NCBI RefSeq assembly: GCF_004216915.1
Contig: NZ_SGXD01000001.1
Coordinates: 744,001 to 808,000 of the forward strand
DNA from: Motilibacter rhizosphaerae
GTDB taxonomy: Bacteria > Actinomycetota > Actinomycetes > Motilibacterales > Motilibacteraceae
Direction of reading: 5' to 3'
DNA: 64,000 bases
The notes below the pieces were generated by a model. It searched no databases, had not been told where the DNA came from, and saw only the letters and a list, made by a program, of their open reading frames with translations. Position 1 is the first letter of the stretch; each line of letters begins with the position of its first letter. The position numbers and the translations under genes are program-made. Positions 5,652 to 22,285 of the stretch are shown here, piece after piece.

Positions 5652-5704
5652 TCCAGCACCACCCGTACGGGCAGGGGGCGGCGCGCAGGTTCACCCGTCA
5701 GGGC

Positions 5705-5740
5705 TAAGGCTCGCGCCCCCCGCTGCCGAGAGTCCCTCTC
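5705..5740 (+). promoter_or_regulatory. Possible flagellar (FliA-type) promoter upstream of fliM
   Basis: Between fliL and fliM the sequence CTAAGGCT (5704-5711) and GCCGAGAG (5725-5732) resembles the two halves of a FliA-type promoter (TAAA and GCCGATAA). The spacing is 13 bases rather than the usual 11, and the match is imperfect. The 89-bp gap and weak ribosome binding site of fliM make a separate transcription start plausible, but this call is tentative. Confidence 0.25.
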
Positions 5741-6766
5741 GTGAGTGGACAGCCCAACCGGGTCTCGACGCGCAGGGTCGGCCGCAGCAGCAGCAGCGGC
5801 GAGTCGAACGTGGACGCGTACGACTTCCGCCGCCCGACCAAGCTCTCCCGCGAGCACGTACGGACGCTGCAGATCGTCTTCGAGACGTTCGCGCGGCAGT
5901 ACACGACGCTGCTCACGTCGACCCTGCGGGCGAGCAGCCAGGTCTCGCTCGTGTCCATCGAGCAGCTGACCTACGACGAGTACATCTCGCAGCTCGCGAA
6001 CCCCACGCTGATGATCACGCTCAGCGTGGAGCCGCTCGTCGGCGCCGGCGTGCTGGAGTTCAGCGTCGGCAGCGCGATGGCCTGCGTGGACCACGTGCTC
6101 GGCGGGCCCGGCGCCCTCGACCAGCCGGAGCGCCCGCTCACCGAGATCGAGATGTCGCTGCTCCGCGAGCTGCTCGAGCGCGTCCTGCACGAGCTCAAGT
6201 ACGCGTTCGAGGGCCTCGTCACGCTCGACCCGCAGATCGTGGGCTACGAGTACAACCCGCAGTTCGCCCAGGTCGCCGGCCCGACCGACCTCGTGCTCGT
6301 CGCGTCGTTCGACATGAAGATCGGCCTCGTCGACACCGTCGCCACGGTGTGCCTGCCGTTCGCGCCGACCCTCGCGGTCCTCGAGGCCAACTCGAGCAAC
6401 CACTTCAGCACCGAGCGGGAGCGCCAGCAGCGGCTCAACGCCGCCGCGCTCATGGCGACGCGTATGGAAGACGTCCACGTCGAGGTGCGCGTCTGCTTCG
6501 ACGAGACGCTCACCCACCCCGAGGACCTCGTCGACCTGCGCCCCGGCGACGTGGTGCCGCTGCGCCACGCGACCAGCCAGCCGCTGACCGTCCGCACCGA
6601 GGACGTCGTCTTCGCCCACGCCACGCCGGGCTCCACCGGCAAGCGGCTCGCCGTGCTCGTCGTCGAGCCGCCGCCCCGGGACGACGGGCCGCCGCAGATC
6701 CTCTCGACGAGCCCGCTCCGCCCCGCCCAGCCCCTTCCGACCACTTCCGGGAGCACCGCCCCATGA
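5741..6766 (+). CDS. fliM: Flagellar motor switch protein FliM
   Basis: A 341-residue FliM, the switch-complex protein that carries the CheC-like middle domain (about residues 40-230) and a C-terminal SpoA/FliN-like domain (about 245-320, with L-R-P-G-D-V-V-P-L and L-T-V-R-T-E-D-V). The N-terminus is Ser/Arg-rich and runs straight into the Y-D-F-R-R-P-T-K-L-S segment that normally follows the CheY-binding helix. The helix itself (consensus L-S-Q-x-E-I-D-A-L-L) is absent, and an in-frame stop at 5705-5707 leaves no room for a longer start with it. The GTG at 5741 is the best available start. The stop overlaps the fliN start (ATGA). Confidence 0.93.
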   Translation: MSGQPNRVSTRRVGRSSSSGESNVDAYDFRRPTKLSREHVRTLQIVFETFARQYTTLLTSTLRASSQVSLVSIEQLTYDEYISQLANPTLMITLSVEPLVGAGVLEFSVGSAMACVDHVLGGPGALDQPERPLTEIEMSLLRELLERVLHELKYAFEGLVTLDPQIVGYEYNPQFAQVAGPTDLVLVASFDMKIGLVDTVATVCLPFAPTLAVLEANSSNHFSTERERQQRLNAAALMATRMEDVHVEVRVCFDETLTHPEDLVDLRPGDVVPLRHATSQPLTVRTEDVVFAHATPGSTGKRLAVLVVEPPPRDDGPPQILSTSPLRPAQPLPTTSGSTAP

Positions 6767-7515
6767 GCACGTCCGTGCCGCAGGAGATCATCGCCGCCGT
6801 CGTCGCCGCCGCGACCGCCGCGGCCCCGCAGCTGCCGGCGTCGAGCCCGCTTGCGATCGGCGCCCCGGTCATGGACCTCGCGGCGCTCCCGCTGCCCGCC
6901 AACGCGGCCACCGCCGTCGTCGCCGACCTCGGCGGGGGCGTCCGCGGCACCTCGCTCGTCATCGTCCCGACCGACCTCGTCGAGGCGCTGCAGCAGAGCC
7001 CGCTCGGCCAGCTCGACCTCGCCTCCGCGGTGCGCCCCGGCCTCGCCGCGGCCGCCGAGGCGTTCGGCCAGGCCGTCCTCGACGCGCCGCTCGAGCTGCC
7101 GATCGACGTGGCCCTCGAGCGCCTGGCCGGCGCGGGTGCCGCCGTCGCGGTGCCGCTGCTCGACAACGGCCAGGTCGTCGTCGTGTACGCGGCGGCCATC
7201 TCCGCGACCGGCGCCGCCCGCCCCGCCGCCGGTGGCGGGCGCCGGCCGCAGCGCAACGGCGGCCTCGAGCTGCTGCGCGACGTCGTCATGGAGGTCACCG
7301 CCGAGCTCGGCCGCACGCGGATGACGGTGCGCGAGCTGCTCTCGCTCACCCCCGGCTCCGTGGTCGAGCTCGACCGGGCCGCCGGGAGCCCCGCTGACCT
7401 GCTCGTCAACGGCACGCTGATCGCCCGCGGCGAAGTCGTCGTCGTCGACGAGGAGTACGGCATCCGCATCACCGAGCTCGTCGGCCCGGGGGCGGACGCC
7501 GAGGGCGCCGCGTGA
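6763..7515 (+). CDS. fliN: Flagellar motor switch protein FliN, long form
   Basis: A 250-residue FliN-type protein. The conserved SpoA domain is at the C-terminus (about 165-240): a V-M-E-V-T-A-E-L-G-R-T-R-M-T-V-R-E-L-L segment, then L-T-P-G-S-V-V-E-L-D-R, and finally V-N-G-T-L-I-A-R-G-E-V-V-V-V-D, the classic FliN signature. The first 130 residues form an Ala-rich helical domain that ordinary FliN (about 100-140 residues) lacks; it may be a CheC-like remnant as in FliY, though no CheC catalytic motif (D/S-x3-E-x2-N) is evident. The ATG overlaps the fliM stop and the fliO start overlaps its stop, so translation is coupled. It works in the C-ring with FliM and FliG (FliG is not in this window). 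Confidence 0.88.
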   Translation: MSTSVPQEIIAAVVAAATAAAPQLPASSPLAIGAPVMDLAALPLPANAATAVVADLGGGVRGTSLVIVPTDLVEALQQSPLGQLDLASAVRPGLAAAAEAFGQAVLDAPLELPIDVALERLAGAGAAVAVPLLDNGQVVVVYAAAISATGAARPAAGGGRRPQRNGGLELLRDVVMEVTAELGRTRMTVRELLSLTPGSVVELDRAAGSPADLLVNGTLIARGEVVVVDEEYGIRITELVGPGADAEGAA

Positions 7516-7952
7516 GCACGGGTCGCGCGCTCGTCCAGCTGGTCTTCGCGCTCGGCGCCGTCCTCGCCCTGCTGCTCCTCGTCTCCAAGGTGCTCGGCCG
7601 CGCCGGCTCCGGCCGCAAGGGCAGCAACCTCGAGGTCCTCGCCCGCCGCCAGCTCGCCAAGGGCGCATCGGTCGCGGTGGTCCAGGTCGGCAGCCGGGCC
7701 CTGGTGCTGGGCGTGTCCGAGCAGGGCGTCCGCCTGCTCTCCGAGGCCGAGGCGGCCGAGTTCACCGCACCCGTCGAGGAGACCGCCGAGGACGGCGAGG
7801 CCGCTGACGGCCTGCCGACCCCCGGCCGGCCCGGGCGCCGCGCCCGCACGCTGTCCACCCCCGGCGGCGCGCTCGCCGGCAGCGTGCTCAGCCCCGCGAC
7901 CTGGCGGCAGACCGCCGAGGTGCTGCGGGAGCGGACGACGAGGCGCGGATGA
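7512..7952 (+). CDS. fliO: Flagellar biosynthesis protein FliO
   Basis: A 146-residue protein with one N-terminal membrane span (about residues 5-26, LVQLVFALGAVLALLLLVSKVL) followed by a small soluble FliO domain with L-E-V-L-A-R-R-Q-L-A-K-G-A-S-V-A-V-V-Q-V-G and L-V-L-G-V-S-E-Q-G-V. The last 50 residues are a charged and Pro/Gly-rich tail. FliO helps assemble the FliP ring of the type III export gate. The GTG start overlaps the fliN stop and the stop overlaps the fliP start (ATGA), which matches the coupled production expected of FliO and FliP. Confidence 0.88.
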   Translation: MSTGRALVQLVFALGAVLALLLLVSKVLGRAGSGRKGSNLEVLARRQLAKGASVAVVQVGSRALVLGVSEQGVRLLSEAEAAEFTAPVEETAEDGEAADGLPTPGRPGRRARTLSTPGGALAGSVLSPATWRQTAEVLRERTTRRG

Positions 7953-8737
7953 GCCTCCGCGCGCGCCGCAGCGCGCTGCTCGCCGGCGTCCTGACCGCTC
8001 TGCTCGTCCTCCCCGCCGGCGTCGCTGCCGCCGCCTCCCCGTCCGCCCCGACGGCACCGCGGACGCCCAGCACCCCGGGCGTCACGGTCAACCTCACCGG
8101 GCTCGTCGGCAAGCCCAGCTCCTCGCTGACGATCATCCTGGCGATCACGGTCCTGTCCGTGGCCCCGACCCTGCTGCTGCTCACCACCTGCTTCACCAAG
8201 GTGTTCGTCGTGCTCGGCCTGACGCGCAACGCGCTCGGGGTGCAGAGCGTCCCGCCGAACCAGGTGCTCGCCGGCATCGCGCTGTTCGTCTCGCTGTTCA
8301 TCATGGCGCCGGTGCTGAGCGACATGAACAAGGACGGGGTGCAGCCCTACCTGCACGGCGAGAAGACCCAGGCGCAGGCGTACAAGGACGGCGTCGCCCC
8401 GCTCCACGACTTCATGGTGAAGAAGACCCGCAAGGAGGAGCTCGCGCTCTTCACGAAGGTCGCGCAGAAGGGCAAGCCGAAGGACGCCGCGAGCGTCCCG
8501 CTGAGCACGCTCATCCCGGCGTTCATCCTGTCCGAGCTGAAGAGTGCGTTCATCATCGGCTTCGTCATCTTCATCCCGTTCCTCGTCATCGACATCGTCG
8601 TCAGCGCAGGCCTGATGTCGATGGGCATGATGATGCTGCCGCCAGCCATGATCTCGCTGCCGTTCAAGATGCTGCTCTTCGTCCTCGTGGACGGGTGGAG
8701 CCTCGTCATCACCTCGCTCGTGCAGAGCTACCACTAG
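7949..8737 (+). CDS. fliP: Flagellar type III export gate protein FliP
   Basis: A 262-residue FliP with a cleavable-looking N-terminal signal sequence (about residues 1-29), then the conserved first span I-I-L-A-I-T-V-L-S-V-A-P-T-L-L-L-L, the cytoplasmic/periplasmic loop carrying H-D-F-M-V-K-K-T-R-K-E-E-L, and the highly conserved C-terminal segment L-I-P-A-F-I-L-S-E-L-K-S-A-F-I-I-G-F, ending in M-M-L-P-P and the last span. FliP forms the core pentamer of the export gate with FliQ and FliR. ATG 7949 overlaps the fliO stop. Confidence 0.95.
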   Translation: MSLRARRSALLAGVLTALLVLPAGVAAAASPSAPTAPRTPSTPGVTVNLTGLVGKPSSSLTIILAITVLSVAPTLLLLTTCFTKVFVVLGLTRNALGVQSVPPNQVLAGIALFVSLFIMAPVLSDMNKDGVQPYLHGEKTQAQAYKDGVAPLHDFMVKKTRKEELALFTKVAQKGKPKDAASVPLSTLIPAFILSELKSAFIIGFVIFIPFLVIDIVVSAGLMSMGMMMLPPAMISLPFKMLLFVLVDGWSLVITSLVQSYH

Positions 8738-8749
8738 AAGGGCTTGCCA

Positions 8750-9022
8750 GTGAACGACTCCGCGATCCTCGACATCGGGCTGCAGACGATGCTCCTGGCG
8801 GCCAAGCTCAGCGCACCCATGCTCGTCACCTCGCTCGTGATCGGCTTCGCCGTCTCGCTCTTCCAGTCGGTCACGCAGATACAGGAGCAGACGCTGAGCT
8901 TCGTGCCCAAGGCGCTCGGCGTCGGGGTCGCGATCCTGCTCACCGGCAACTGGATGCTGCACTCGCTCATCGCCTTCACGCACGAGCTGTTCAACCGCGT
9001 ACCCGCCCTGCTGTCGTCCTGA
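8750..9022 (+). CDS. fliQ: Flagellar type III export gate protein FliQ
   Basis: A 90-residue FliQ, two membrane hairpin helices, with the conserved Q-S-V-T-Q-I-Q-E-Q-T-L-S-F-V-P-K loop. A longer frame from TTG 8744 exists, but GTG 8750 is preferred: AGAAGGG at 8737-8743 then lies at a normal 7-base distance. It is 12 bp downstream of fliP and 22 bp upstream of fliR, and forms the export gate with them. Confidence 0.93.
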   Translation: MNDSAILDIGLQTMLLAAKLSAPMLVTSLVIGFAVSLFQSVTQIQEQTLSFVPKALGVGVAILLTGNWMLHSLIAFTHELFNRVPALLSS

Positions 9023-9044
9023 CCCGCCACCGGCGAGGAGCCTC

Positions 9045-9821
9045 GTGAACGTCCAGATCGCCGCCCCGCTGCTGGTGAGCTTCCTGCTCGCCACAGTGCG
9101 CGCGGCGGCTTGGCTGTTCGTGGCCCCGCCGTTCGCCACCCGCTCGATCCCCTCGACGGTGAAGGCGGTGACGGCGTTCGCTCTCGCGCTGCCGGTCGCG
9201 CCGCGCCTCCGGGTCCCGGTCGAGTCGCTCAGCACGCCGTCGCTCGTCGCCGCCGTGGTGCTGCAGGTCTTCACCGGTACGGCGCTGGGCTTCGTGAGCT
9301 ACCTGCTCTTCGCCGCGGTCCAGGCTGCGGGTGACTTCATCGACCTGGTCGGGTCGTTCTCCATCGCCAGCGCCTATGACCCGATGTCGCAGGCGCAGAA
9401 CAGCGTCTTCGGCCGCTTCACGTACCAGATCGCGGTGATGCTGCTCTTCGCGGTCAACGGCCACCTGCTCGTCATCGAGGGGTTCGAGAAGTCGTACGAC
9501 CTCATCCCGCTCGACGCGACGGTCGACCTCACCCGGCTCGACCACGTCGTGACCGTGGGGCTTGCGCAGATGGTGATGATCGCGCTGGAGATCAGCGCTC
9601 CCATGGTCGCCGTGCTGTTCATGGTGGACGTCTCCATGGGCCTGCTCACCAAGGTCGCCCCGTCCCTGCAGGCGTTCTCGCTCGGCTTCCCCGCGAAGAT
9701 CCTCACGACGCTGCTCCTCTTCGGGGCCTTCATCCCGCTGTTCCCCGGTGCCGTCGACCACGTCGTCGACCTCACGCTGCACGCGCTCAAGGCGCTCTAC
9801 CCGGCGGGGGGTGGGTCGTGA
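9045..9821 (+). CDS. fliR: Flagellar type III export gate protein FliR
   Basis: A 258-residue polytopic protein with six or more hydrophobic segments and the family features R-A-A-A-W-L-F-V-A-P-P-F in the first span and F-S-I-A-S-A-Y-D-P-M-S-Q-A-Q-N-S-V-F-G-R-F in the middle cytoplasmic loop. GTG 9045 has a GGCGAGGAG ribosome binding site. The stop overlaps the flhB start by four bases (GTGA). FliR completes the FliP5Q4R1 gate and contacts FlhB directly, in keeping with the coupled gene pair. Confidence 0.94.
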   Translation: MNVQIAAPLLVSFLLATVRAAAWLFVAPPFATRSIPSTVKAVTAFALALPVAPRLRVPVESLSTPSLVAAVVLQVFTGTALGFVSYLLFAAVQAAGDFIDLVGSFSIASAYDPMSQAQNSVFGRFTYQIAVMLLFAVNGHLLVIEGFEKSYDLIPLDATVDLTRLDHVVTVGLAQMVMIALEISAPMVAVLFMVDVSMGLLTKVAPSLQAFSLGFPAKILTTLLLFGAFIPLFPGAVDHVVDLTLHALKALYPAGGGS

Positions 9822-10906
9822 GCGGCGAGAAGACGGAGAAACCGACAGCCAAGCGCGTCAAGGAGGCCCAGCGGGAGGGCCGCACCCCGAAGACGCCGGA
9901 CTTCGCCGGCTGGATCGGGCTGCTCAGCGCCAGCTTCGTCATCCCCGCCACGGCCGGCCACGCGACGAACGTCGCGCGGCAGACCCTCCTGCAGTCGGTC
10001 GACATCATCGCGGACCCCGACCCCCAGCGGGCGGCGATGCTCTTCGTCCACGGCATCGAGTCGGGCGTGGCCCTCGTCATCCCCATGGCGATCGTCATGA
10101 TCGTGATCGGCTCCGTCTCCAGCATCGCGCAGGGCGGCCTGCACATCGCGACGCACAAGCTGAAGCCGAGCTTCAAGTCGCTGAACGTCCTCGCCGGGCT
10201 CAAGCGGCTGGTGGGTCCGCACGGTGCCTGGGAGGCCGTGAAGTCCCTGCTGAAGCTGACGTTCCTCGGCTTCGTCGTCTGGCACGCCGTCGCCGGCGTG
10301 CGGCCGCTCCTCGCGTACGGGACGGCGCTCCCGCTCTCCGCCGTCCTCGCGACCGTCGGACGCACGACGCTCGAGGCGATGCGCGAGGGGGCGTGCGCCG
10401 GCCTGCTCATCGCGGCGGCGGACTACGGCTGGGTCCGTCGCCAGTACTCCAACAAGATGAAGATGAGCAAGCAGGAGATCAAGGAGGAGGGCCGCGCCGC
10501 AGAAGGTGACCCGGCCGTCAAGGGCAAGCGGAAGTCGAAGCAGTTCGAGCTCGCCCGCCAGCGCATGATGAACGCCGTCCCCCAGGCCGACGTCGTCATC
10601 GTCAACCCGACGCACGTCGCCGTCGCGCTGCGCTACGACGCGGCCCAGGGCGCTCCCCGGGTCGTCGCCAAGGGCTCGGGGCACGTGGCGAAGCGCATCC
10701 GCGAGCTGGCCCAGGAGCACCGCGTCCCGATGGTGCAGGACATCCCGCTGGCGCGCGCGATCTACGCCTCGGCCGAGGTCGGGGACGAGATCCCCCCGGA
10801 GCTCTACACCGCCGTCGCCCGCGTGCTGGCCTTCGTGCTGTCGCTGCGCGCACGCGGATCCGCTGCAGGTACGCACAAGCTGCCGGCGCTCGCGCAGCGC
10901 CGCTGA
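9818..10906 (+). CDS. flhB: Flagellar type III export switch protein FlhB
   Basis: A 362-residue FlhB. The N-terminus has the conserved E-K-T-E-K-P-T-A-K-R-V-K-E-A-Q-R-E-G segment, four membrane spans follow, and the cytoplasmic domain contains the autocleavage site Asn-Pro-Thr-His at residues 263-266 (V-I-V-N-P-T-H-V-A-V-A-L-R-Y). Cleavage between Asn and Pro switches the export apparatus from rod/hook to filament substrates, so the intact site indicates a functional switch. Upstream of it lies the usual K-x-E-I-K-E-E helix. The gene usually after flhB, flhA, is missing here: the next gene is on the other strand, only 4 bp away. Confidence 0.95.
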   Translation: MSGEKTEKPTAKRVKEAQREGRTPKTPDFAGWIGLLSASFVIPATAGHATNVARQTLLQSVDIIADPDPQRAAMLFVHGIESGVALVIPMAIVMIVIGSVSSIAQGGLHIATHKLKPSFKSLNVLAGLKRLVGPHGAWEAVKSLLKLTFLGFVVWHAVAGVRPLLAYGTALPLSAVLATVGRTTLEAMREGACAGLLIAAADYGWVRRQYSNKMKMSKQEIKEEGRAAEGDPAVKGKRKSKQFELARQRMMNAVPQADVVIVNPTHVAVALRYDAAQGAPRVVAKGSGHVAKRIRELAQEHRVPMVQDIPLARAIYASAEVGDEIPPELYTAVARVLAFVLSLRARGSAAGTHKLPALAQRR

Positions 10907-10910
10907 CGCA

Positions 10911-12023
10911 CTAGCTCCGTCGCAGCCGCGCGCCCGCGAGCTCGCCCGTCCGCCGGACGAGCCGGGCCGCGATCTCGCGGCGCGTGCCCCCGTCGCAGAG
11001 GAGCAGGTGCTCGACCGCGCCGATGCGGCCGGTGTCGTCGGCACGGCGGGAGCGGACGGCGTACTCCAGCGAGGCGAGGTAGCCGGCACCCGGGCCGGGC
11101 CCGCGGACCTTGCTCCCCAGCGCCACCCGCTCGACGGGGCCACCGCGCTGCGAGCGCAGCGCCTGCATCGTGCCCGCAGGCAGCTCGAGGTCGAGCACGT
11201 CGCCGACGACGTCAAGCGCCGCCGCGACCGTGCCGCCCATCCGCGCGGCCCGCGCCGCGGCCACGAGCTCGTCCCAGCCCGCCTCGTCGATGCCGCGCAG
11301 CAGCAGCGCGCAGTCGGCGATCCAGCGCAGCGGCGAGGGGTGCCAGCCGACGCCGTGCGCGGCCGTGACGACGAGCTGGTGCGCGCGGCTCGGCACGAGG
11401 ACCTCGGCCCCCGCCAGCGTCGCGGGGACCACCGCCTCCCACAGCGTGCCGGTGCTGCCGGGCTCCCACAGCGGGCGCCAGTGCAGGTCGAGCTGCGTGC
11501 CCGACTCCGGCACGTACGGGCTGGACTGCTTGCGCCGCCTGGCGTCCTCGGGAGGCTCCGGCTCGTACCAGTGCCACCCGCCCGCGACGAGCGCGTCGTG
11601 CGCGCGGACGGCGTCGGCCGCCGGCACGAGCACGTCGACGTCCTCCATCGGGCGCACGCCGACGTCGCCGCCCGTGCTCGTGGCGACCAGCGCGGCGCCC
11701 TTGAGCAGGACGACGGGGATGCCGGCCCCGGCCAGCAGGCGCAGCCCCGGGCCGGCGGCGTGGAGGAGCCGCTGGTTGGCGTACCACGCGTGCCGGTAGA
11801 CGCCCTGGAGCCGGGCGCGCTCCGGTGCCTCGACCCCGAGTCGCTCGAGGTTGCGGTAGAGCAGCGGCAGCAGCCGGTACGACACGGGCTCGAGGTCCGT
11901 CGGGTCGTGGTGGCGGCGCCACTCGGCGTACGCCTCCCGGCCGGTGTCGCCGTCGAGCAGGGCCGCGCGCAGCAGCAGCCGGCGCTCGGCGCCGGGCAGG
12001 GCGGAGTTGCGCTCCGTCGTCAC
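10911..12023 (-). CDS. Nucleotidyltransferase-fold family protein (PF14907-like), last gene of PqqD/HprK-like operon
   Basis: A 370-residue protein of the uncharacterised nucleotidyltransferase family found beside PqqD- and HPr-kinase-like genes. The nucleotidyltransferase core is seen as V-V-L-L-K-G-A-A-L-V-A followed by G-V-R-P-M-E-D-V-D-V-L-V, giving the metal-binding D-x-D, at about residues 105-135. Conserved H-G-V-G-W-H (about 237) and a C-terminal helical region follow. GTG 12023 overlaps the stop of the ABC gene and has AGGAGGT nine bases upstream. Members of this family occur in some lasso-peptide clusters, where one homologue has been linked to tail modification. The substrate here is unknown. 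A role in adding a nucleotide or sugar to the product of the operon is inference. Confidence 0.85.
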   Translation of the reverse strand: MTTERNSALPGAERRLLLRAALLDGDTGREAYAEWRRHHDPTDLEPVSYRLLPLLYRNLERLGVEAPERARLQGVYRHAWYANQRLLHAAGPGLRLLAGAGIPVVLLKGAALVATSTGGDVGVRPMEDVDVLVPAADAVRAHDALVAGGWHWYEPEPPEDARRRKQSSPYVPESGTQLDLHWRPLWEPGSTGTLWEAVVPATLAGAEVLVPSRAHQLVVTAAHGVGWHPSPLRWIADCALLLRGIDEAGWDELVAAARAARMGGTVAAALDVVGDVLDLELPAGTMQALRSQRGGPVERVALGSKVRGPGPGAGYLASLEYAVRSRRADDTGRIGAVEHLLLCDGGTRREIAARLVRRTGELAGARLRRS

Positions 12024-13678
12024 GGGACCGGGACCTCCTGCGCGGCCGTCCGCCCGTCCCGGAGCACGACGACGCGGTCGGCCGACGCTGCCGCCGCCGA
12101 GTCGTGCGTCACGACGAGCACCGAGGGGCGCCACGGCAGCTCGGCCAGCGTGGTGAGCAGGTGGGCGATGGCGGCGTCGTCGAGGTGCGTCGTCGGCTCG
12201 TCGAGCACGACGAGCCGGGGCTCGCCGAGCAGGGCGCGGGCGAGCCCGATGCGCTGGCGCTGGCCGCCGGAGAGCAACGAGCCCTCCTCGCCGATCCGCG
12301 CGTCGTAGCCGTCGGCCAGCCCCGCCACGACCGCGTCGGCGCCGGCGCGCCGTGCCGCGAGGCGGACCTGCTCCATGGTCGCCTCGCGGCCGTGGCGGAT
12401 CGCCTCGGCCACGGTCCCGTCGGCGAGCACCAGCTCCTGCAGCACGACGCCGAAGCGGGCGCGCAGGTGCGCGAGGTCGAGCTCGTCGTACGCCACGCCG
12501 TCGGCCCGCACGACCCCCGACTGCGGCCGGTAGAGGCCGAGCACGAGCGCGGTGACCGTGCTCTTGCCGGCGCCGTTCGGGCCGACGAGCGCGACGCGCT
12601 CGCCGGGGCGCAGCACGAGGTCGAGGTCCCGGATGAGGGGGCGCTCGTCGTAGCCGAAGGACACGCCCTCGAGCCGGACGTCCCCGCTGAACTCGATGCG
12701 CCGCGTCCCGCGGTACGGGGGTTCCGCGTCCGCGTCGAGCACCTCCTGCACCCGCCGGAGCGACGCGCCGCCGGTGACGAGGGCCGGCAGGGCGCCGACC
12801 ACCGTGCTGACGCTGCGCAGCAGGAGCGCGGCGATGGCGTAGAAGGAGAGCAGCGCGCCGATGGTCAGCGAGCCCGCGCTCACCTCGCGGCCGCCGACGA
12901 CGAGCACCGCGATCCCGGCCCCGGCAGCGACGGTGCCCTGCGCGATGGTCCAGGCCGACACCCGCCACGCCAGGCGGCGCCCGGACTCGCTCAGCGCCTC
13001 GACCGTGCGGGTACGCCGGGCGAGCTCGGCCTCGGCGGTGCCGAGCGCCGTGACCATGACCATGCCGCGCAGCCCCTGGGTGACCTCGGCGCTGAAGCGG
13101 TCGAAGTGCCGGTGCCAGTCCTGCGCGTAGCGCTCGACCACCGCGCCCAGCCAGCGGGAGAGCAGCGTGAGCAGCGGGAGGACCCCGGCGAGCACGAGCG
13201 TGAGCAGGGGGTCGAGGACGGCGGCGAGGACCCCGAGCGCCGCGGTCACCACGACGGCCGGCAGGAAGACCGACAGCGACTGGCTGATCACGAGGTCGAG
13301 CCGCTCGGTGTCCTGCACGACGCTGCCGTGGACGCGGCCCGGTTCCTGCGCGTCGTACCACCCGCGCGGCAGCTCGTAGAGCCGGTGCCACAGCCGGGTG
13401 CGCAGCCGCGTCATCGCGTCCTTGGTCGCGATGACGACGACCCAGCGGTTCGCGAGCCCGACGAGGGCGCTGAGGACGTAGAGCACGAGCACCGCCGCCC
13501 CGGTCCAGGTGACGCCGGTCGAGTCGTGGTGCGGCAGGTCGGTGTCGAAGATGCGCCGGACCAGCAGCGCCGCGGGCAGCAGCACCAGCGACTGCACCAC
13601 GGAGAGCACCACGCTGAGCGCGAGGAGGCGGTGCGCGCCGTCGAGCAGCTGGGCGTACGCGCGGACCGCCGCCCTCAC
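12020..13678 (-). CDS. ABC exporter, fused permease and ATPase (type IV/B-family)
   Basis: A 552-residue half-transporter. Residues 1-310 hold the transmembrane domain with about six spans. The ATPase follows, with Walker A G-P-N-G-A-G-K-S-T (about 365-373), signature L-S-G-G-Q-R-Q-R, Walker B R-L-V-V-L-D-E-P and switch His in V-T-H-D-S. There is no N-terminal C39 peptidase domain, so leader removal would need another enzyme. GTG 13678 overlaps the GT2 stop and the stop overlaps the nucleotidyltransferase start, both as GTGA. As the only transporter in the operon it most likely exports the modified product, or a lipid- or peptide-linked intermediate; the cargo is not known. Confidence 0.9.
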   Translation of the reverse strand: MRAAVRAYAQLLDGAHRLLALSVVLSVVQSLVLLPAALLVRRIFDTDLPHHDSTGVTWTGAAVLVLYVLSALVGLANRWVVVIATKDAMTRLRTRLWHRLYELPRGWYDAQEPGRVHGSVVQDTERLDLVISQSLSVFLPAVVVTAALGVLAAVLDPLLTLVLAGVLPLLTLLSRWLGAVVERYAQDWHRHFDRFSAEVTQGLRGMVMVTALGTAEAELARRTRTVEALSESGRRLAWRVSAWTIAQGTVAAGAGIAVLVVGGREVSAGSLTIGALLSFYAIAALLLRSVSTVVGALPALVTGGASLRRVQEVLDADAEPPYRGTRRIEFSGDVRLEGVSFGYDERPLIRDLDLVLRPGERVALVGPNGAGKSTVTALVLGLYRPQSGVVRADGVAYDELDLAHLRARFGVVLQELVLADGTVAEAIRHGREATMEQVRLAARRAGADAVVAGLADGYDARIGEEGSLLSGGQRQRIGLARALLGEPRLVVLDEPTTHLDDAAIAHLLTTLAELPWRPSVLVVTHDSAAAASADRVVVLRDGRTAAQEVPVP

Positions 13679-14349
13679 GGCGCCACCTCGCGCCGGCGCC
13701 GCAGCGCCTCGCGCACCACGCGGGTGAGGTCCACGCGCGAGCCCGGGTCCTGGCGCCCGGTGTTCGTGGCGTGCAGCCGCCGCCGCAGCACCACCTCGGG
13801 CACGTCCACGGCGACGAGGCCGGCCTCCTGCGCCCGCGCGTACCAGTCGATGAACTCGCCGACCCGCAGGTCCTCGCGCAGCGGCCCCACCCGCTCCACG
13901 AGCGCGCGACGCAGCAGCACACCGCCGAGCAGGTGGCCGGGCGTGCTGGCCGTGGTCGCGGGCCGGGGGGCGTGCGCCGGGTCGACGTCGGGGCTGACGA
14001 ACTCCTCGACGCGGCCGCGCACGACATCGACCTCCGCGCCCAGGGCGGCGAGGCGCACGGCGAGGGCTCCGGGGAGCCAGAGGTCGTCGGCGTCGAGGAA
14101 CCCCAGCACCGGGGCCGTCGTCCGCGCGATGCCGGTGTTGCGGGCGGCGCCGGGCCCGCGTGCCTCCGTCTGCACGAGGCTGACCCGCTCGCCGAAGGAG
14201 CGCGCGACCGCCGCGCTGCCGTCGGTCGAGCCGTCGTCGACGACGACCACCTCGGCGGGCGCGGGGACCTGGCCCAGCACGCTGTCGAGCGCCTCGCCGA
14301 GGTAGCGCTCGCCGTCGCGCACCGGCACGACGACGGCGACGCCGGTCAC
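13675..14349 (-). CDS. Glycosyltransferase family 2
   Basis: A 224-residue GT2 enzyme consisting of little more than the GT-A catalytic domain. It begins V-A-V-V-V-P-V-R-D-G-E-R-Y-L-G-E-A-L, followed by V-V-V-D-D-G-S-T-D-G-S (nucleotide-binding Asp pair), G-P-G-A-A-R-N-T-G-I, and the metal-binding D-A-D in L-G-F-L-D-A-D-D-L-W. No membrane segment is present, so it is a soluble transferase using a nucleotide sugar. The acceptor could be a peptide, lipid or polysaccharide. Both ends overlap their neighbours as GTGA, which puts it firmly in the operon with the HPr-kinase-like gene and the exporter. Confidence 0.88.
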   Translation of the reverse strand: MTGVAVVVPVRDGERYLGEALDSVLGQVPAPAEVVVVDDGSTDGSAAVARSFGERVSLVQTEARGPGAARNTGIARTTAPVLGFLDADDLWLPGALAVRLAALGAEVDVVRGRVEEFVSPDVDPAHAPRPATTASTPGHLLGGVLLRRALVERVGPLREDLRVGEFIDWYARAQEAGLVAVDVPEVVLRRRLHATNTGRQDPGSRVDLTRVVREALRRRREVAP

Positions 14350-15428
14350 GGCCCCTCCGCGCACAGCCGGGCGACGAGCTCGACCGCCTCGCGCGGGTCG
14401 CCGCCGAGGTCGAGGTGCCAGACGGGCACGGCGCGGGCGAGCGCCGCGAGCGGCGCCAGGGCCGCTCCACCGTCGGGCGGCAGCTGCAGGACCGTGGTGG
14501 GCGCCAGGGCCATGAGCGCCTGCGCCGCGGTGGCCGGCCGCAGCCGCGTGGGGGAGCCCGGCACCGGTCGGGGCAGCACCAGCGCGCGGACGTCGAGGGC
14601 GCGGACCAGCCGGTCGCCGTGGAGCGCGCCGACGTCGACCACGCGCTTCGCGCCGTCGTACGCCGAGGGGTGCACGGGCGGCAGCCCGGGCAGCAGGGCC
14701 GCCGACTCGGCGGTCAGCTTGGCGGTGCCGTAGACGCTGTGCGCGCGCACGCCGGTGCCGGTGGCCGTCTCCGCCCCGGTCTCGACGAGCACGTAGTCGT
14801 CGCCGGCGTACTGCAGCCCGGCCTGCAGCGCCGCGACCGCGGTGGTCGACTTGCCCGACCCGCCCGGACCGGCGAGCAGGACGCCGGAGCCGCCGGTGCC
14901 CACGCACGCGGCGTGCACGAGCAGGCGCCGGGGCCCGCGCAGCGCCCAGTGCAGGAGGGTGCGCAGCGGCGCGGCCCGCTCCCACCACGGGACGCGGTCG
15001 CGGTCGAGGACCCAGAAGAGCGCCTCGCCCGTCGAGCGGCGCACCAGGGAGAGCGCGCGGAAGTCGCCGTCCAGCGCCATGAGGTCGCCGTGGAAGACGG
15101 TGCTGACGTCGTCGTCGCTCACCCCGGCGACGAGCCCGCGGTGGCCGACGTCGGGCGCCTGCCACGGGAACCGCGGCGGCGCGACGCCGGTGCTGCCGGA
15201 GTCGAAGAGGCGCACCTCCAGCGCCGCGTCGCCGGGCGGTACGCGCAGGTGCCCCAGCGCCATCGTGAGGTCGGGGACCAGCTCCTCGCCGGCGAAGGCC
15301 AGCCGCAGGCGCACGCCGCCCACGTCGAGGTCGACGTCGTGGCGCCCGCGGCGGCGCGCGGCCTCCTGCCAGCTCGCCGAGGCGGCGTCGAACCACGCGC
15401 CCGCGGCGGTGACGGTCCCGGTGCTCAC
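14346..15428 (-). CDS. HPr-kinase-like P-loop ATPase
   Basis: A 360-residue protein with an N-terminal region of about 150 residues without clear motif, then a kinase core like that of HPr serine kinases: L-L-V-H-A-A-C-V-G (about 169-177), Walker A G-P-G-G-S-G-K-S-T at 187-195, Y-A-G-D-D-Y-V-L-V (about 211-219; Walker-B-like acidic pair). No HPr or PTS gene is nearby. HPr-kinase homologues placed beside PqqD proteins are known in peptide-modification settings (in the paeninodin lasso system one phosphorylates the C-terminal residue of the precursor). A comparable role acting on the PqqD-tail protein or an unlinked peptide is inference. GTG 15428 overlaps the pqqD-like stop. Confidence 0.82.
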   Translation of the reverse strand: MSTGTVTAAGAWFDAASASWQEAARRRGRHDVDLDVGGVRLRLAFAGEELVPDLTMALGHLRVPPGDAALEVRLFDSGSTGVAPPRFPWQAPDVGHRGLVAGVSDDDVSTVFHGDLMALDGDFRALSLVRRSTGEALFWVLDRDRVPWWERAAPLRTLLHWALRGPRRLLVHAACVGTGGSGVLLAGPGGSGKSTTAVAALQAGLQYAGDDYVLVETGAETATGTGVRAHSVYGTAKLTAESAALLPGLPPVHPSAYDGAKRVVDVGALHGDRLVRALDVRALVLPRPVPGSPTRLRPATAAQALMALAPTTVLQLPPDGGAALAPLAALARAVPVWHLDLGGDPREAVELVARLCAEGP

Positions 15429-15868
15429 CCAGTCGAGCCGGTGAGCGCCTGGGGCCAGCCGTTGTCGTCGGCCTCGTGCACCGGGTCGAGCAGGAGGAGG
15501 TACTCCATGTCGTCGTAGCGCTGGAGCAGCGGCGCGGCGTACGCCTCGGGCGCGTCGCCGAGGACCACCTCGCCGTCCGCGGCTGCCCCGCCGGGGGAGA
15601 GCAGCTCCTCGGCGAGCAGCTGGCCGGTGAGCGCGGCGACGTCCGACGCGACCTGCGCGGGGTCGGCGCCGGGGTAGCGCGCCGCCAGCGCCGCCGTGCA
15701 CCGCTCGACCGGCACGCCCTGCGACAGCGCCGACCACGCGGCCGGACCGGTGCCGGTCAGGCTGTAGTAGACGCCGGTCGTGAGCGCGATGAGGATGGTC
15801 TCCCCGTCGAGCGTCTCGTGCACGACCTTGCCCGGTTCGACGGCGTACGCCGTCCCTTCCGCCATCAT
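15425..15868 (-). CDS. PqqD-like (RiPP recognition element) protein with C-terminal acidic tail
   Basis: A 147-residue protein, first in its operon. Residues 1-90 look like a PqqD domain, the winged-helix fold that binds leader peptides: T-L-D-G-E-T-I-L-I-A, Y-Y-S-L-T-G-T-G-P-A-A-W, then a helical V-A-S-D-V-A-A-L-T-G-Q-L-L-A-E-E-L-L. PqqD proteins are normally about 90 residues; here a 55-residue extension follows, with a linker and then the compact motif R-Y-D-D-M-E-Y-L-L-L-L-D-P-V-H-E-A-D-D-N, ending in a Gly/Ser/Thr-rich segment with Ser145 near the terminus. The tail could be the modified substrate itself (inference). The ATG at 15868 has GGGGAGGA upstream, and a second Met follows directly. 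It is divergent from the GT4 gene, with six bases between starts. Confidence 0.82.
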   Translation of the reverse strand: MMAEGTAYAVEPGKVVHETLDGETILIALTTGVYYSLTGTGPAAWSALSQGVPVERCTAALAARYPGADPAQVASDVAALTGQLLAEELLSPGGAAADGEVVLGDAPEAYAAPLLQRYDDMEYLLLLDPVHEADDNGWPQALTGSTG

Positions 15869-15874
15869 CGCCTG

Positions 15875-17095
15875 GTGGTCCTCCCCGTCGAGCCCCCGCC
15901 GGCCCCGTCCGCGCTCCTCGTGGCCCAGCGCTCACCGGCCACGACGTACGGCGGGGTCGACCTCCGATGCCGCACGACGGTAGCCGGACTGCACGCGGCG
16001 CGGCTCGGAATCACGCTCTTCTGCCCCGATCCGGCAGACAGGACCACTCCTCCGCCGCCCGGCTGCGGGCTGCGCCTCGGGCCGCCGGCCGCGCAGCCGG
16101 TGCCGGCGCTGGGCTGGCTGGCGGCACCGGACGGACTGCCGGCGGACCGGTGGTGGCACGAGGGCGTGCTCGCCGAGCTCGCGTCCGTGGTCGCGGAGCT
16201 GCGCCCGAGCGTGGCGGTGCTCGAGCACCTCGTCATGCAGCGGGCGCTGCCGGTGCTGCGCGCCGCCGGCGTCCCGACCGTGCTCAGCGCGCACAACGTC
16301 GAGGGCCGGCTGCACGACGACATGGCCGCGGCGCGCGGCGACGCGCTGCCGCCCGGCCTCTCGGCGCGCGTCGCCGAGCGCACCCGCGCCGTCGAGGGGA
16401 CGGTCGTGGCGCAGGTCGACGCCGTCTGGGCGTGCAGCGAGCGCGACGCGGCGCTGCTGCGCGAGACGTACGCGGGGTGCGCGCCCGTGACCGTCGTCCC
16501 CAACGCGGTCGACGTGCCGGAGGTGCCGGCCGGTGACGAGGGCCGCGACCTCGACGAGGTGCTGTACGCCGGCGCCCTCGGCTACCCGCCCAACGTCGCC
16601 GCGGCCGAGGTGCTGCTCGAGGCGCTGCCGGCCCTGCGCGCGGCTGCGCCGGCCCTGCACCTGACGGTGCTCGGCTCCGGGCCGCCGCCCGCGCTGCGGG
16701 CGCGCGCCGCGGCGACCCCGGGGGCGCTGCTGACCGGGACCGTGCCGGACGCGGCGCCGTACCTCGCGCGGGCGGGGGTGCTCGCCGTCCCGCTCCAGGT
16801 GGGCAGCGGCACCCGCTTCAAGGTGCTCGAGGCGTTCGCCGCCGGACTGCCGGTCGTCAGCACGCCGAAGGGCGTGGAGGGCCTGGACGTCGTCGACGGC
16901 GAGCACGTGCTCCTCGCGGACTCCGCGCGCGAGCTCGTCGAGGCGGTCCTGCGGCTCCGGGCGGACGCCGGGCTCCGCGAGGCGCTCCGGGCGCAGGCCC
17001 ACGCCCTCGTCGGCGAGCGCTACTCGACGTCGGCCGTCGCGCCGCTGGTGGCCGCGTCCGTGGCGGAGGTGCTCGAGCGCAGGGCCCGCGCGTAG
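15875..17095 (+). CDS. Glycosyltransferase family 4
   Basis: A 406-residue GT-B fold enzyme. The N-terminal half carries V-L-E-H-L-V-M-Q and L-S-A-H-N-V-E-G. The C-terminal half carries V-V-P-N-A-V-D-V-P, the donor-site segment V-P-L-Q-V-G-S-G-T-R-F-K-V-L-E-A-F-A-A-G, and V-S-T-P-K-G-V-E-G-L. This is the variant of GT4 seen in exopolysaccharide and exosortase-associated clusters. GTG 15875 is chosen because the first beta-strand (S-A-L-L-V-A-Q-R-S-P) begins soon after it; GTG 15920 is an alternative that would cut this strand. It is divergent from the PqqD-like operon, so both likely share a control region lying within the coding starts. Its last 76 bp overlap the convergent epimerase gene. 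Confidence 0.88.
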   Translation: MVLPVEPPPAPSALLVAQRSPATTYGGVDLRCRTTVAGLHAARLGITLFCPDPADRTTPPPPGCGLRLGPPAAQPVPALGWLAAPDGLPADRWWHEGVLAELASVVAELRPSVAVLEHLVMQRALPVLRAAGVPTVLSAHNVEGRLHDDMAAARGDALPPGLSARVAERTRAVEGTVVAQVDAVWACSERDAALLRETYAGCAPVTVVPNAVDVPEVPAGDEGRDLDEVLYAGALGYPPNVAAAEVLLEALPALRAAAPALHLTVLGSGPPPALRARAAATPGALLTGTVPDAAPYLARAGVLAVPLQVGSGTRFKVLEAFAAGLPVVSTPKGVEGLDVVDGEHVLLADSARELVEAVLRLRADAGLREALRAQAHALVGERYSTSAVAPLVAASVAEVLERRARA

Positions 17096-17805
17096 CGGCG
17101 CAGCCGGGCCGCCCCCCGCACGCGCCGCGGCGCGCCGTCGAGCGGGTGCCAGCCGAGCACGCTGCGCGTGCTGTGCAGCCCGCGCGGGTTGCGGGACACC
17201 GCGTACGCGACGGCGCAGCCGCCCGGCACGACCGGCACGTCGAGCGCGGCGCGGACGGCGGCGACGAGGTCGCGCTCGCTGAGCCAGAGGCTGCGCTCGA
17301 GCGGGTCCTCCAGCGGCGCCGGCGCCACCCCGCCGAGGCGCAGCGCCACGACCTCGAGCCCTCCGGCGGCCGCCTCGCGCCCGAGCTGCTCGGCGCGCGC
17401 CTTGCTGCGTCCGTACGGCGTGGCCGGGTCCCCCGCCCGGTCCGGCGCCAGCCGGCGCTCCCACGGGCGGCGCAGCCGGACCCCTCCGGCGTGCACCGAA
17501 CTGGCGAGCACCACCCGCCGTGCGCGCCGCTCGGCCGCGGCCCGGAGGACGGTGCGGACCATCTCCAGGTTGTCGGGGTCGGTCGTGCCCGTGTCGTAGT
17601 TCTCACCGGGGATGTCCCAGGCCAGGTGCACGACGGCGCAGCCCAGGGGCAGTGCCGTCAGCAGTCCGGTGAGGTCGCGCACGTCGTGCTCGGGCAGGTC
17701 GAGGGCGACGACGCCCGAGCCCAGCGCCGGCACGAGCGCCCGGCCGACGCGGCCGCGGGCACCGGTGACGACGACGGCAGCGGGCACCCCTCCATGCTCG
17801 CGCAC
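17020..17805 (-). CDS. NAD-dependent epimerase/dehydratase family protein
   Basis: A 261-residue short-chain dehydrogenase of the extended sugar-epimerase type, shorter than the usual 310-330. The NAD-binding glycine motif T-G-A-R-G-R-V-G lies close to the N-terminus, then V-H-L-A-W-D-I-P-G-E-N-Y and the catalytic segment with S-S-V-H-A-G-G and Y-G-R-S-K-A, in which Tyr-x-x-x-Lys is intact. It could act on a nucleotide sugar used by the neighbouring glycosyltransferases. Start choice is uncertain: GTG 17805 is taken because GTG 17787 would have its GGAGG only one base away. The 3' end overlaps the GT4 gene by 76 bp. Confidence 0.8.
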   Translation of the reverse strand: MREHGGVPAAVVVTGARGRVGRALVPALGSGVVALDLPEHDVRDLTGLLTALPLGCAVVHLAWDIPGENYDTGTTDPDNLEMVRTVLRAAAERRARRVVLASSVHAGGVRLRRPWERRLAPDRAGDPATPYGRSKARAEQLGREAAAGGLEVVALRLGGVAPAPLEDPLERSLWLSERDLVAAVRAALDVPVVPGGCAVAYAVSRNPRGLHSTRSVLGWHPLDGAPRRVRGAARLRRYARALRSSTSATDAATSGATADVE

Positions 17806-17954
17806 CGTGCCGCTCGGGCGTGCGGATGCACCAGCGGGAGGCGTCCGTTGTCCCCGCAACGGGTGACGATCGCCACAGCCGCAGGACCCGACTTCCCTCA
17901 TGTCCCTCGCCTAACCTGCCGTAGTCATACGTGCCGGCACCATGCCGGTCCCCA

Positions 17955-18136
17955 CCCCGGCAACGCCGAGTCCTGTCCGGCCGGGTGGGTGGTCGTCAGA
18001 CGCAGAGGACAGGAGCGGGGGACCCACTCCGCACGGAGATCGCCGGCAGCCGTCAGGCCGCCGGCTCGGGGTGAAGCCGCACCACGCGGCCGGGGCACTT
18101 CCAGTCCCGAACCCGACAGCTCACTTCGCAGGCGTG
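17955..18136 (+). ncRNA. Cyclic di-AMP riboswitch (ydaO/yuaA type)
   Basis: The untranslated leader of the NlpC/P60 gene carries the conserved pieces of the ydaO class in order: GCCGAGTCCTG near 17970, a complementary GACAGGAGC that leads into GCGGGGGACCCA (18008-18035), the GGGGTGAAGCC block (18068-18079), and near the 3' end CGACAGCTCACTTCGCAGGCG, at 18114-18134. In actinobacteria this class typically precedes cell-wall hydrolase genes, exactly the gene found here 18 bp further on. Ligand binding is expected to lower expression of the hydrolase. Outer limits are approximate. Confidence 0.88.
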
Positions 18137-18153
18137 CTGGAAGGGCTTCCTCT

Positions 18154-19938: not shown

Positions 19939-20049
19939 GGGGGCTGTGGACGAACCCTGCCCGCCTGTGGATGACGGAGCGCGCGGGCCCTCCACCGCCC
20001 TAGCGTCCCGTCCTGCCGCGCACCGTGCGCGGGGGACGGAGGACGCGGG

Positions 20050-20343
20050 ATGGGCACCCGGCTGGTCGTCGACGGCGACCTCCTCGCCACCGCGGTGGCG
20101 GACCTGCGCGGCGTGTCCCGCGTGCTGGAGGGCCTGCCCGGGCTGCTCGGCGACGTGGACGGGGCGCTGCCGGCAGGCGGGCTGCGACACGCCGTCGACG
20201 AAGCCGTGCGCGACTGGGGCGACCGGCGCCGCCACCTGCTGACCCGCGTCGAGGCGCTGCGCGAGCTGGCGGGGACGTCGCTCGGGACCTACGCGCAGGT
20301 CGAGGACGAGCTCGTCCGTGCCCTCAGCGGGCGGGCGCGGTGA
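20050..20343 (+). CDS. Small helical protein, WXG100/ESX-like
   Basis: A 97-residue, nearly all-helical protein of the size of ESX (WXG100) proteins. A Trp-Gly sits in the middle at the predicted helix turn (V-R-D-W-G-D-R-R-R), and Y-A-Q-V-E near the C-terminus fits the YxxxD/E type VII secretion signal. No database-level match can be claimed from sight. ATG 20050 has GGAGG eight bases upstream. It overlaps the next gene (TGATG), and the following two genes are also coupled, as is usual for WXG-type partners and their large effectors. Confidence 0.65.
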   Translation: MGTRLVVDGDLLATAVADLRGVSRVLEGLPGLLGDVDGALPAGGLRHAVDEAVRDWGDRRRHLLTRVEALRELAGTSLGTYAQVEDELVRALSGRAR

Positions 20344-21611
20344 TGCGCCCGCGCTCCTGGGTGCCGCTGTGCGCGGACGACCCGGTGCCCGGCGACCCGG
20401 AGCAGCTGCGGCTCTCTGCGGCGCGCAGCCGCGCAGCGGCCGCAGCGCTCGAGCAGCAGGCGGCCGACCTGGAGCGGCTGGCGGCCGCGCCGGGCGAGGC
20501 GGCGGCGCTGGACCGGCTGCGCGAGGAGGCCGGCGCCGTCGCCCACGAGCTGCGCCGGGCGGCCACGCGCTGCCGCGTGGTCGGGTCCGCGCTGTCGGCG
20601 GCCGCCCCCGCGCTCGAGGACGCGCAGCGCGCCAGTCTGCGGGTCCTGCAGGAGGCGCAGGCGGCCGCCGGCGCTGCGCCGCCCGCCGACCTCGCGGACG
20701 TCCTCACCCGGGCCCGGACGGCGCTGGCCGGCGTCGTGCGCGACTGGGACGAGGCGCAGGAGCGGGCGGCGCGCGCGGTGCGCAGCGCCTGCTCCGGGGA
20801 CGGTCTCGCCGACGGCCACTGGCGCTGGGTCCACCGCGCCTGGGACGCCGCCGCCGGCGTGGTGCGCGCGCACGCGGCCGGGCTCGCCCGGCTGGCGGGC
20901 GCGCTCTCCGTCGTCTCCACCGTGCTCGCGGCCGCGGCGTTCCTGCTCCCCGTGCTGGGCCCCGCGCTCGCCGCCCTCGCCGGCGCGCTGGCCGGCGTCG
21001 CGGCCCTCGTCCACCTGGCGCTCGCCGTCGCGGGGCCGGGCGACTGGTCCGACGTGGTGTGGGACGGCGTCGGCATGGCCACGGGCGTCGTCGGGGGCCG
21101 GGCCGGCGCGGTCGCCCTGCGCCGGATCACGGCGGCGGCGGACCGCCTCGCCGGGGAGCCGGCGGCAGCGGCGGTCCGTACGGTCCGCGCCCCGTCCGTC
21201 GGTGCGGCGCACCGGGTGCTCGCCGACCCCGCGGCTGCGCCGGCCGACCGCGCGGGGGCGGCGTGGCGGCTGCGCGAGGCCGCGGACGCCGAGCGCCGGG
21301 CGAGGGAGCGGGCGACCGCCGACCTGCTGGGCGAGCCCGGGCTGCGCCACCGCCTCGCGTACGGGCCCGGCGAGGCTGCCGCCGCCGCGCGTGCCCGGGC
21401 GCGGGTCGCGGCCGCCCACCCGTCCTCGCGCCGGGGCCGCCGCGCCGTGCGCGACGCAGGGGACGCGCTCGTCGTGGTCGGGGCAGCGCGGTGGGTCGGC
21501 TTCGCGCTCGACCCAGTGGACCGCGCCGACCGCCGGCTCACCGGGCACTCGCACGAGGACGGGTTCGGGCTGCGGCACAGCCGCCGCCGGTCCGTACGGA
21601 GTCCGCGGTGA
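20343..21611 (+). CDS. Helical protein with hydrophobic core, putative type VII-secreted effector-like protein
   Basis: A 422-residue protein with a long Ala/Arg/Glu helical N-terminus (residues 15-190, probable coiled coil), a strongly hydrophobic stretch of about 60 residues (near 190-255, LSVVSTVLAAAAFLLPVLG onward), then a second charged helical region. This layout resembles the N-terminal half of polymorphic toxins exported by type VII systems, but no nuclease, deaminase or other toxin domain is recognisable at the C-terminus, which ends in a basic H-S-R-R-R-S-V-R-S. It starts at ATG 20343, overlapping the stop of the WXG-like gene, and its stop overlaps the next GTG. Function unknown. 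Confidence 0.65.
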   Translation: MRPRSWVPLCADDPVPGDPEQLRLSAARSRAAAAALEQQAADLERLAAAPGEAAALDRLREEAGAVAHELRRAATRCRVVGSALSAAAPALEDAQRASLRVLQEAQAAAGAAPPADLADVLTRARTALAGVVRDWDEAQERAARAVRSACSGDGLADGHWRWVHRAWDAAAGVVRAHAAGLARLAGALSVVSTVLAAAAFLLPVLGPALAALAGALAGVAALVHLALAVAGPGDWSDVVWDGVGMATGVVGGRAGAVALRRITAAADRLAGEPAAAAVRTVRAPSVGAAHRVLADPAAAPADRAGAAWRLREAADAERRARERATADLLGEPGLRHRLAYGPGEAAAAARARARVAAAHPSSRRGRRAVRDAGDALVVVGAARWVGFALDPVDRADRRLTGHSHEDGFGLRHSRRRSVRSPR

Positions 21612-22285
21612 GCGCGGCGGAGGAGCCGAGCGTCCCGCCCCTGCGCTGGAGCATGGTGCTGCCGCCGGGGTGGCAGCCGCTGCCCCTCGACGCGACCGCC
21701 CCGCGCGCGGTGGCGGCCCTCGTCCGCCGCCAGCTGCGCCGCCACCTGCCGCGCGACGCGGCCGCCGCCTCCCGGCTGCGGGCGCCGCTGACCGCCGCGC
21801 TGTCGCGCAGCGTCGCCGACGCGCGGGCCGCGGGGGCGCTCGGCCTCTACCTGCACCTGCCGGCCGACGAGGTCCCCGTCGCCGCCGCGCTGTGCGTCGT
21901 CCCGCTGCCGGGGACGCCGACGGACGCCGGTCTGCTCGCGGGCGCCGTCGCGCTGCCGGGGGGCGGGACCCTGCGCGAGCGGCGCGTGGCCGTGGCGCCC
22001 GGGGCACCGGAGGCCGCGGTGCTGGAGGTGCTGCTGCCGGTGGACGCGGGGCCGGTGCGGCTGCTCGGGCTCACGCTCAGCACGCCCCTGGTCGAGCTCG
22101 CGCCGGCGTACGCCCGGCTGCTGCGCGCCGTCGCCGCCACCGTGCGGGTCCTGCCGCCGGCGGCCGGTGCGGCTAGCCCCGGCGGGCGGGCCAGGCCAGC
22201 GGGGCCGCTCCCCGCAGCTGCGCGGCGACCTCGCCCGCCAGCCAGCGGGCGAACTCCCACGCCTGCGCCGAGAGCTGCGGGGTGA
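21608..22285 (+). CDS. Conserved-looking hypothetical protein of type VII-like cluster
   Basis: A 225-residue soluble protein of unrecognised family, third in a coupled trio (GTG 21608 overlaps the upstream stop). It has no signal peptide or membrane span. The core (about 20-175) is an alpha/beta region with L-P-P-G-W-Q-P-L-P-L and two Val/Leu/Ala-rich strand blocks. The last 40 residues are Pro/Arg-rich low-complexity sequence encoded opposite the convergent ATPase gene and may be little more than run-on past a lost stop. Immunity protein or secretion chaperone for the upstream product are both possible; neither is supported by a motif. Confidence 0.6.
   Translation: MSAAEEPSVPPLRWSMVLPPGWQPLPLDATAPRAVAALVRRQLRRHLPRDAAAASRLRAPLTAALSRSVADARAAGALGLYLHLPADEVPVAAALCVVPLPGTPTDAGLLAGAVALPGGGTLRERRVAVAPGAPEAAVLEVLLPVDAGPVRLLGLTLSTPLVELAPAYARLLRAVAATVRVLPPAAGAASPGGRARPAGPLPAAARRPRPPASGRTPTPAPRAAG

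Follow-up and report, generated by a model that had tools for sequence, protein, structure and literature searches.

A 64,000-nucleotide stretch of the genome of Motilibacter rhizosphaerae, a flagellated actinobacterium (contig NZ_SGXD01000001.1, positions 744,001 to 808,000; hereafter the window) carries a block of genes in which a PqqD-type protein, an HPr-kinase-like (HPrK-like) protein, a family-2 glycosyltransferase (GT2), an ABC exporter and a nucleotidyltransferase (NT) are encoded together, and this raises the question of what substrate such a set of proteins serves. The initial annotation had connected the set with the tailoring of phosphorylated lasso peptides, a relationship that was upheld here. 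As judged from sequence comparison, the PqqD protein may itself contain the likely peptide, in the form of its C-terminal tail. We favour the reading, to which we assign a probability of roughly 0.4, that the block is a phospho/glyco-modification pathway related to those of linear polyphosphorylated peptides (LPPs) and phosphorylated lasso peptides, guided by a recognition element for ribosomally synthesized and post-translationally modified peptides (RiPP recognition element, RRE) and carrying its precursor in cis, as part of the recognition protein.

The PqqD protein carries a conserved C-terminal tail

The PqqD protein consists of an RRE domain (residues ~13–93), a variable linker and a tail (residues 110–139) with a short variable end, and it is the only PF05402 protein encoded in the genome. 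Three features concern it:

15425 to 15868, minus strand: tailed PqqD/RRE protein of 147 amino acids; PF05402 (PqqD) at 3e-11, residues 23–90 only
15524 to 15541, minus strand: leader-like RRE-binding motif YAAPLL, residues 110–115, in the PqqD tail (motif scan)
15452 to 15487, minus strand: near-invariant segment DPVHEADDNGWP, residues 128–139, placed where a lasso/LPP core would lie (alignment)

A kinase search followed by a PqqD profile located related loci in other Actinomycetota, in a chlamydial metagenome-assembled genome (L031) and on a plasmid of Crinalium epipsammum (L044); outside Actinomycetota, the sampling consisted of one genome-contig scan and a plasmid collection. A tailed PqqD occurs together with an HPrK-like gene, one to three GT2 genes of ~230 amino acids and an NT gene in the fetched regions of 16 loci from 14 genomes, belonging to Actinomycetota, Chlamydiota and Cyanobacteriota. 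About 150 further PqqD matches of the same profile end before the tail. A profile of the tail only, run on 394 genomes, matched tailed PqqD proteins only (E < 1e-15, next best 0.008), and the tail was found as a stand-alone peptide in none of them. The NCBIfam matches of the PqqD protein were confined to lasso chaperone models, which did not reach cut-off, and a single weak hit to an unrelated domain.

Conservation within the protein is highest at residues 110–139: the tail has a mean column identity of 0.64, compared with 0.43 in the RRE domain and 0.28 in the linker. D120, D128, P129, H131 and G137 are present in all aligned sequences and W138 and P139 in most, and the C-terminal consensus DP[IV]H[DE]...GW(P) is near-invariant apart from two exceptions (L107 and L108). 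Towards the start of the tail, the motif [YW]xxPx[LVIFA] occurs in 8 of the 16 sequences and the wider pattern [YWF]xxPx[LVIFAM] in 12, in all of which it stands exactly 18 residues ahead of DPxH; these 12 sequences are homologous and do not amount to 12 independent observations, but the surrounding linkers are close to saturation. In a control of 5000 shuffles, the two patterns were found in a mean of 0.5 and 1.2 sequences, with maxima of 4 and 6, respectively. Lasso and LPP leaders bind the RRE through a motif of this kind (PMC13381572, PMC10368454), with its Tyr/Trp at −15 to −17 from the core (PMC10368454, PMC13381572), and the −18 spacing of the tail motif is close to this.

Structure prediction yielded an AlphaFold2 model of the PqqD protein with a mean predicted local distance difference test score (pLDDT) of 82. 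Its best solved match is the TbiB1–leader complex (Z 12, 31% identity, residues 8–93), and the RRE also matches another lasso B1 protein; both B1 structures were solved with leader. Residues 101–120 reach a pLDDT of 88–89, with a strand at 114–118 just after YAAP, and residues 121–140, the DPVH...GWP part, lie at about 52–57 and are not packed. In this model, the confident strand and loose C-terminus would fit a tail bound to its own RRE. Foldseek/VIA matches other than RRE domains are middling and were left uninterpreted.

Partner enzymes and a proposed modification of the tail

Four more minus-strand genes follow that of the PqqD protein:

14346 to 15428, minus strand: HPr-kinase-like protein of 360 amino acids; Hpr_kinase_C at 1.9e-5, below the curated cut-off
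13675 to 14349, minus strand: small family-2 glycosyltransferase of 224 amino acids; PF00535 (Glycos_transf_2) at 1.1e-25
12020 to 13678, minus strand: MsbA-like ABC exporter half-transporter of 552 amino acids, without peptidase domain; PF00664 and PF00005 (ABC_membrane and ABC_tran)
10911 to 12023, minus strand: NTP_transf_5 nucleotidyltransferase of 370 amino acids; PF14907 at 1.1e-37

The kinase keeps the P-loop GGSGKS, His172 and Asp210–Asp211, and its catalytic positions are invariant or nearly so in 14 homologues; its structure model reached a pLDDT of only 33.5. Similarly, the NTP_transf_5 motif KG...RPMEDVDV is intact in a motif alignment. The best NCBIfam match of the exporter is TIGR02204 (MsbA_rel), below cut-off. 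The HPrK-like gene adjoins that of the tailed PqqD in nearly all loci. In one locus (L035:7731-10142) a single 803-amino-acid frame fuses an HPrK-like kinase to GT2 sequence. Sequence distances of PqqD and HPrK correlate across the loci (r = 0.61, 0 of 5000 permutations; one near-duplicate dropped, L104 added), as do those of the tail alone and HPrK (r = 0.44, 10 of 5000 permutations). PqqD–NT and HPrK–NT distances correlate less strongly (r = 0.36), which may reflect the presence in some loci of several NT copies, of which one was chosen.

The described LPP pathway comprises an RRE, an HprK-like kinase, an NTP transferase and an MsbA-like exporter, with no cyclase (Popov et al. 2026, PMC13381572). 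The block likewise holds these four elements together with no lasso cyclase, and the RRE-binding motif [Y/W]xxPx[L/V/I/F/A] is common to both. It differs in that the precursor-like motif is fused to the RRE protein, small GT2s are always present, the C-terminal segment is invariant rather than variable, an SpI-like peptidase is missing from the block, and the hosts are Actinomycetota, Chlamydiota and Cyanobacteriota rather than Bacillota. Moreover, Ser3 of the LPP core is phosphorylated, whereas the tail described here has no conserved Ser. The HPr-rel-A systems share an HprK-related kinase, but the present kinase scores far below the cut-off of their model (TIGR04352, HprK-related kinase A; 41.8 bits, cut-off 200).

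In related systems the RRE helps to present the peptide to the HPrK-like kinase (PMC10368454; PMC13381572), and in pseudomycoidin the NT attaches hexoses to the phosphate (PMC8498205). By analogy, the PqqD/RRE domain would bind YAAPLL, either in the tail of the same chain or in that of an adjacent copy, and leave DPVHEADDNGWP exposed at the point that corresponds to the start of a lasso/LPP core. This segment would then be acted on by the HPrK-like kinase, GT2 and NT, presumably by covalent modification, the kinase adding a phosphate, the NT adding a sugar to the phosphate and the GT2 extending it, and the MsbA-like exporter, where present, would move the product out. More tentatively, the tailed loci could form a cross-phylum RiPP-like class with recognition element, leader and core in one polypeptide, whose own near-invariant DPxHx...GWP core is phosphorylated and glycosylated, possibly on an unusual residue (His or Asp), to give a conserved product (a carrier, cofactor or signal) and not a variable antibiotic. 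Fungal OphMA-type borosins carry their substrate peptide at the C-terminus of a pathway protein, a methyltransferase; here, the fusion partner is instead the recognition domain, and modification of the tail is only proposed.

Several observations weigh against modification of the tail. It contains no conserved Ser, Thr or Tyr, several tails hold none of these residues after DPxH, and characterised kinases of this kind phosphorylate Ser. Four of the 16 tails (L035, L106, L107 and L108) have no leader-like motif, and L107 and L108 also lack GWP. The exporter is present in some related loci only, being missing, for example, in L031, L105 and L107, and none of the block's seven genes encodes a peptidase, including an SpI-like leader peptidase. 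The PqqD model was built from a two-sequence alignment (the window protein and its chlamydial homologue). Finally, the invariance of the segment across phyla suits a docking motif as much as a product.

The absence of a conserved Ser, Thr or Tyr from the tail makes docking a close competitor of modification. The leader-like part would fill the RRE groove and DPxH...GWP would bind the kinase, GT2 or NT to assemble a complex, with the tail left unmodified and the substrate being another protein, a glycan or a lipid-linked sugar. Such a role is favoured by a tail in which D, P, H, G and W are invariant and no hydroxyl residue is conserved, by the correlated PqqD–HPrK distances, also for the tail alone, by the loci with neither exporter nor peptidase (L031, L105 and L107) and by the location of L039 in a polysaccharide region. 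However, docking would not call for a leader motif with the spacing seen in lasso leaders, and the loci do not share a gene for any other substrate; we consider a docking or regulatory tail possible, if somewhat doubtful.

Searches for lasso enzymes and a separate precursor

The phosphorylated lasso clusters (paeninodin, pseudomycoidin and Bsf; PMC8498205, PMC10368454) share with the block a PqqD-type B1 protein, an HPrK homologue, an NT and an ABC exporter, as well as the leader motif and how far it lies from the core, but their B1 proteins, the lasso RREs, have no such tail. Further differences came from the searches. Neither the lasso B2 protease (PF13471) nor the lasso cyclase domain (PF00733, Asn_synthase) was found in the genome, which is listed as 100% complete. 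Consequently, the block is not a lasso pathway, which extends to the whole genome the initial view that this is not an ordinary lasso cluster; a lasso cluster scattered over the genome is ruled out, as both families are missing. Decay of a phosphorylated lasso cluster with loss of its precursor, B2 and cyclase appears very improbable: RRE, kinase, NT and ABC protein are common to such clusters, but here the frames and catalytic motifs are intact and a discrete tailed subfamily has been kept across phyla.

A short open reading frame (ORF) motif scan revealed no separate short precursor with a YxxPxL leader at 1–30 kb of the window, and no leader-like short ORF reliably near the tailed loci in the fetched regions. 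Likewise, no LPP-type precursor (YxxPxVLxHQxIxFETxxS) was found among the short ORFs near the block, a related motif being present in the PqqD tail instead. As a positive contrast, the same scan finds a candidate precursor in the lasso-type locus L113, where a short ORF (L113:10735-10908) with the lasso-like leader YERPSMTDYGSLARRT ends in Ser and lies just upstream of an HPrK-like kinase gene. The co-occurring short peptide that the initial annotation had proposed to look for was not found as a separate ORF near the loci; the likely peptide is the PqqD tail. In a classical pathway the RRE would act in trans on a precursor encoded elsewhere in the genome, the tail being an autoinhibitory plug that the precursor displaces. 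Other discrete RREs do act in trans (PMC13381572), but the scan, which covered the fetched regions, gave no leader-like short ORF for the window and no reliable one for the tailed loci, and the gap-free operon leaves no space for one; such a pathway seems unlikely.

In two cases, tailed and lasso-type genes occur in the same genome. In L034 (G156 C76) the tailed PqqD set lies beside a cyclase-like gene, a second short PqqD, a second kinase and NT, a B2-like gene and an ABC gene. L042 (G075 C209) is a lasso-type cluster with a short tail-less PqqD, an Asn-synthase-like cyclase, B2, HPrK and ABC genes; it provides a useful contrast, in a genome that also encodes a tailed PqqD. An anti-phage defence function was dismissed, PADLOC giving just ATPase-type matches to the ABC protein.

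Recurrence and genomic setting of the block

The whole block comprises seven genes, the five on the minus strand in the order PqqD, HPrK-like, GT2, ABC exporter and NTP_transf_5, and two more, listed here with the segment that contains them all:

15875 to 17095, plus strand: family-4 glycosyltransferase (GT4); PF13692 at 5e-24
17020 to 17805, minus strand: short-chain dehydrogenase/reductase (SDR), NAD-dependent epimerase-like, convergent with GT4 with a 76-bp overlap; PF01370 at 5.5e-12
10907 to 17990, no strand: segment inserted here, or lost in a relative (comparison with G001)

Conservation of the gene order elsewhere is partial, in that the PqqD–HPrK–GT2–NT core recurs in three phyla and the exact five-gene order does not. 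Direct BLASTP gave no close counterpart of GT4 and SDR in the other loci, and an SDR on the Crinalium plasmid, considered as a counterpart, did not hold up. Viral contigs gave pattern matches and no relative. The earlier proposal that both glycosyltransferases, the kinase and the NT decorate one exported product is narrowed accordingly: the GT4 and epimerase-like genes lie in the block, yet outside the conserved set, and export would apply to some loci only.

On its left side, the block begins directly at the end of a flagellar operon (FliM/FliN-like, FliO, FliP, FliQ, FliR and FlhB; window 5200–10906). Its right edge is marked by a c-di-AMP riboswitch (RF00379, 52 bits; 17991–18148), which lies upstream of an NlpC/P60 gene. 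In G001, a genome from the same genus, the flhB stop is followed by 207 bp, the c-di-AMP riboswitch and the NlpC/P60 gene, with no block, which indicates that the seven genes were gained or lost together. As the kinase was also not found in four other genomes of the same family, the flagellar neighbourhood is probably incidental.

The presence of two glycosyltransferases, an SDR and an ABC exporter next to flhB would also suit ordinary cell-surface polysaccharide or flagellin-glycosylation genes. This explanation is quite improbable: the same-genus relative has flhB and no block at the site, related cassettes occur in unrelated housekeeping contexts (L031 and L105), and polysaccharide synthesis leaves the PqqD/HPrK/NTP_transf_5 trio with its conserved tail unaccounted for. 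The initial annotation had named a standard capsule or teichoic acid locus as the setting that would speak against it. One related locus, L039, is indeed situated in a polysaccharide region, which includes rmlB/rmlD-like and export genes; this is not the case for L031, L105 or the window block, and the cassette is therefore not explained by an ordinary capsule locus.

At the level of reading frames, the earlier description was confirmed. The five minus-strand frames are open over 147, 360, 224, 552 and 370 amino acids, and the four successive GTGA overlaps are present (TCAC on the plus strand at 15425–15428, 14346–14349, 13675–13678 and 12020–12023), as are the divergent GT4 and convergent epimerase-like genes. 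The GC content at third codon positions is 0.96–0.99 for the five frames, and codon-position GC backs all seven. The PqqD gene has a good Shine–Dalgarno sequence (GGGGAGGA, 15886–15879). The six-base gap between the PqqD start and GT4 is present, but hinges on GTG at 15875 as the GT4 start, where no obvious Shine–Dalgarno sequence was seen. Overlaps of 4 bp are frequent in high-GC operons and alone carry little weight; the recurrence of the core set across three phyla and the absence of the whole block at the relative's site are the stronger evidence. The highest GC content of the window (0.82) is found at 20001–22000.

Significance

Among PF05402 proteins, 21% lie above the size cut-off for discrete RREs without other annotation (PMC12710340). 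RRE-based genome mining seeks a separate short precursor beside the RRE and would overlook an RRE that itself includes leader and core. The RRE-borne tail is the element that goes beyond the first observation, and it may mark an undescribed modified-peptide pathway. If the tail only docks, these enzymes would be assembled according to a new logic. A modified tail would define a pathway that has a near-fixed product in three phyla, and would offer a single-protein substrate with which to study HPrK-like kinases and NTP_transf_5 enzymes, the chemistry of which is poorly known.

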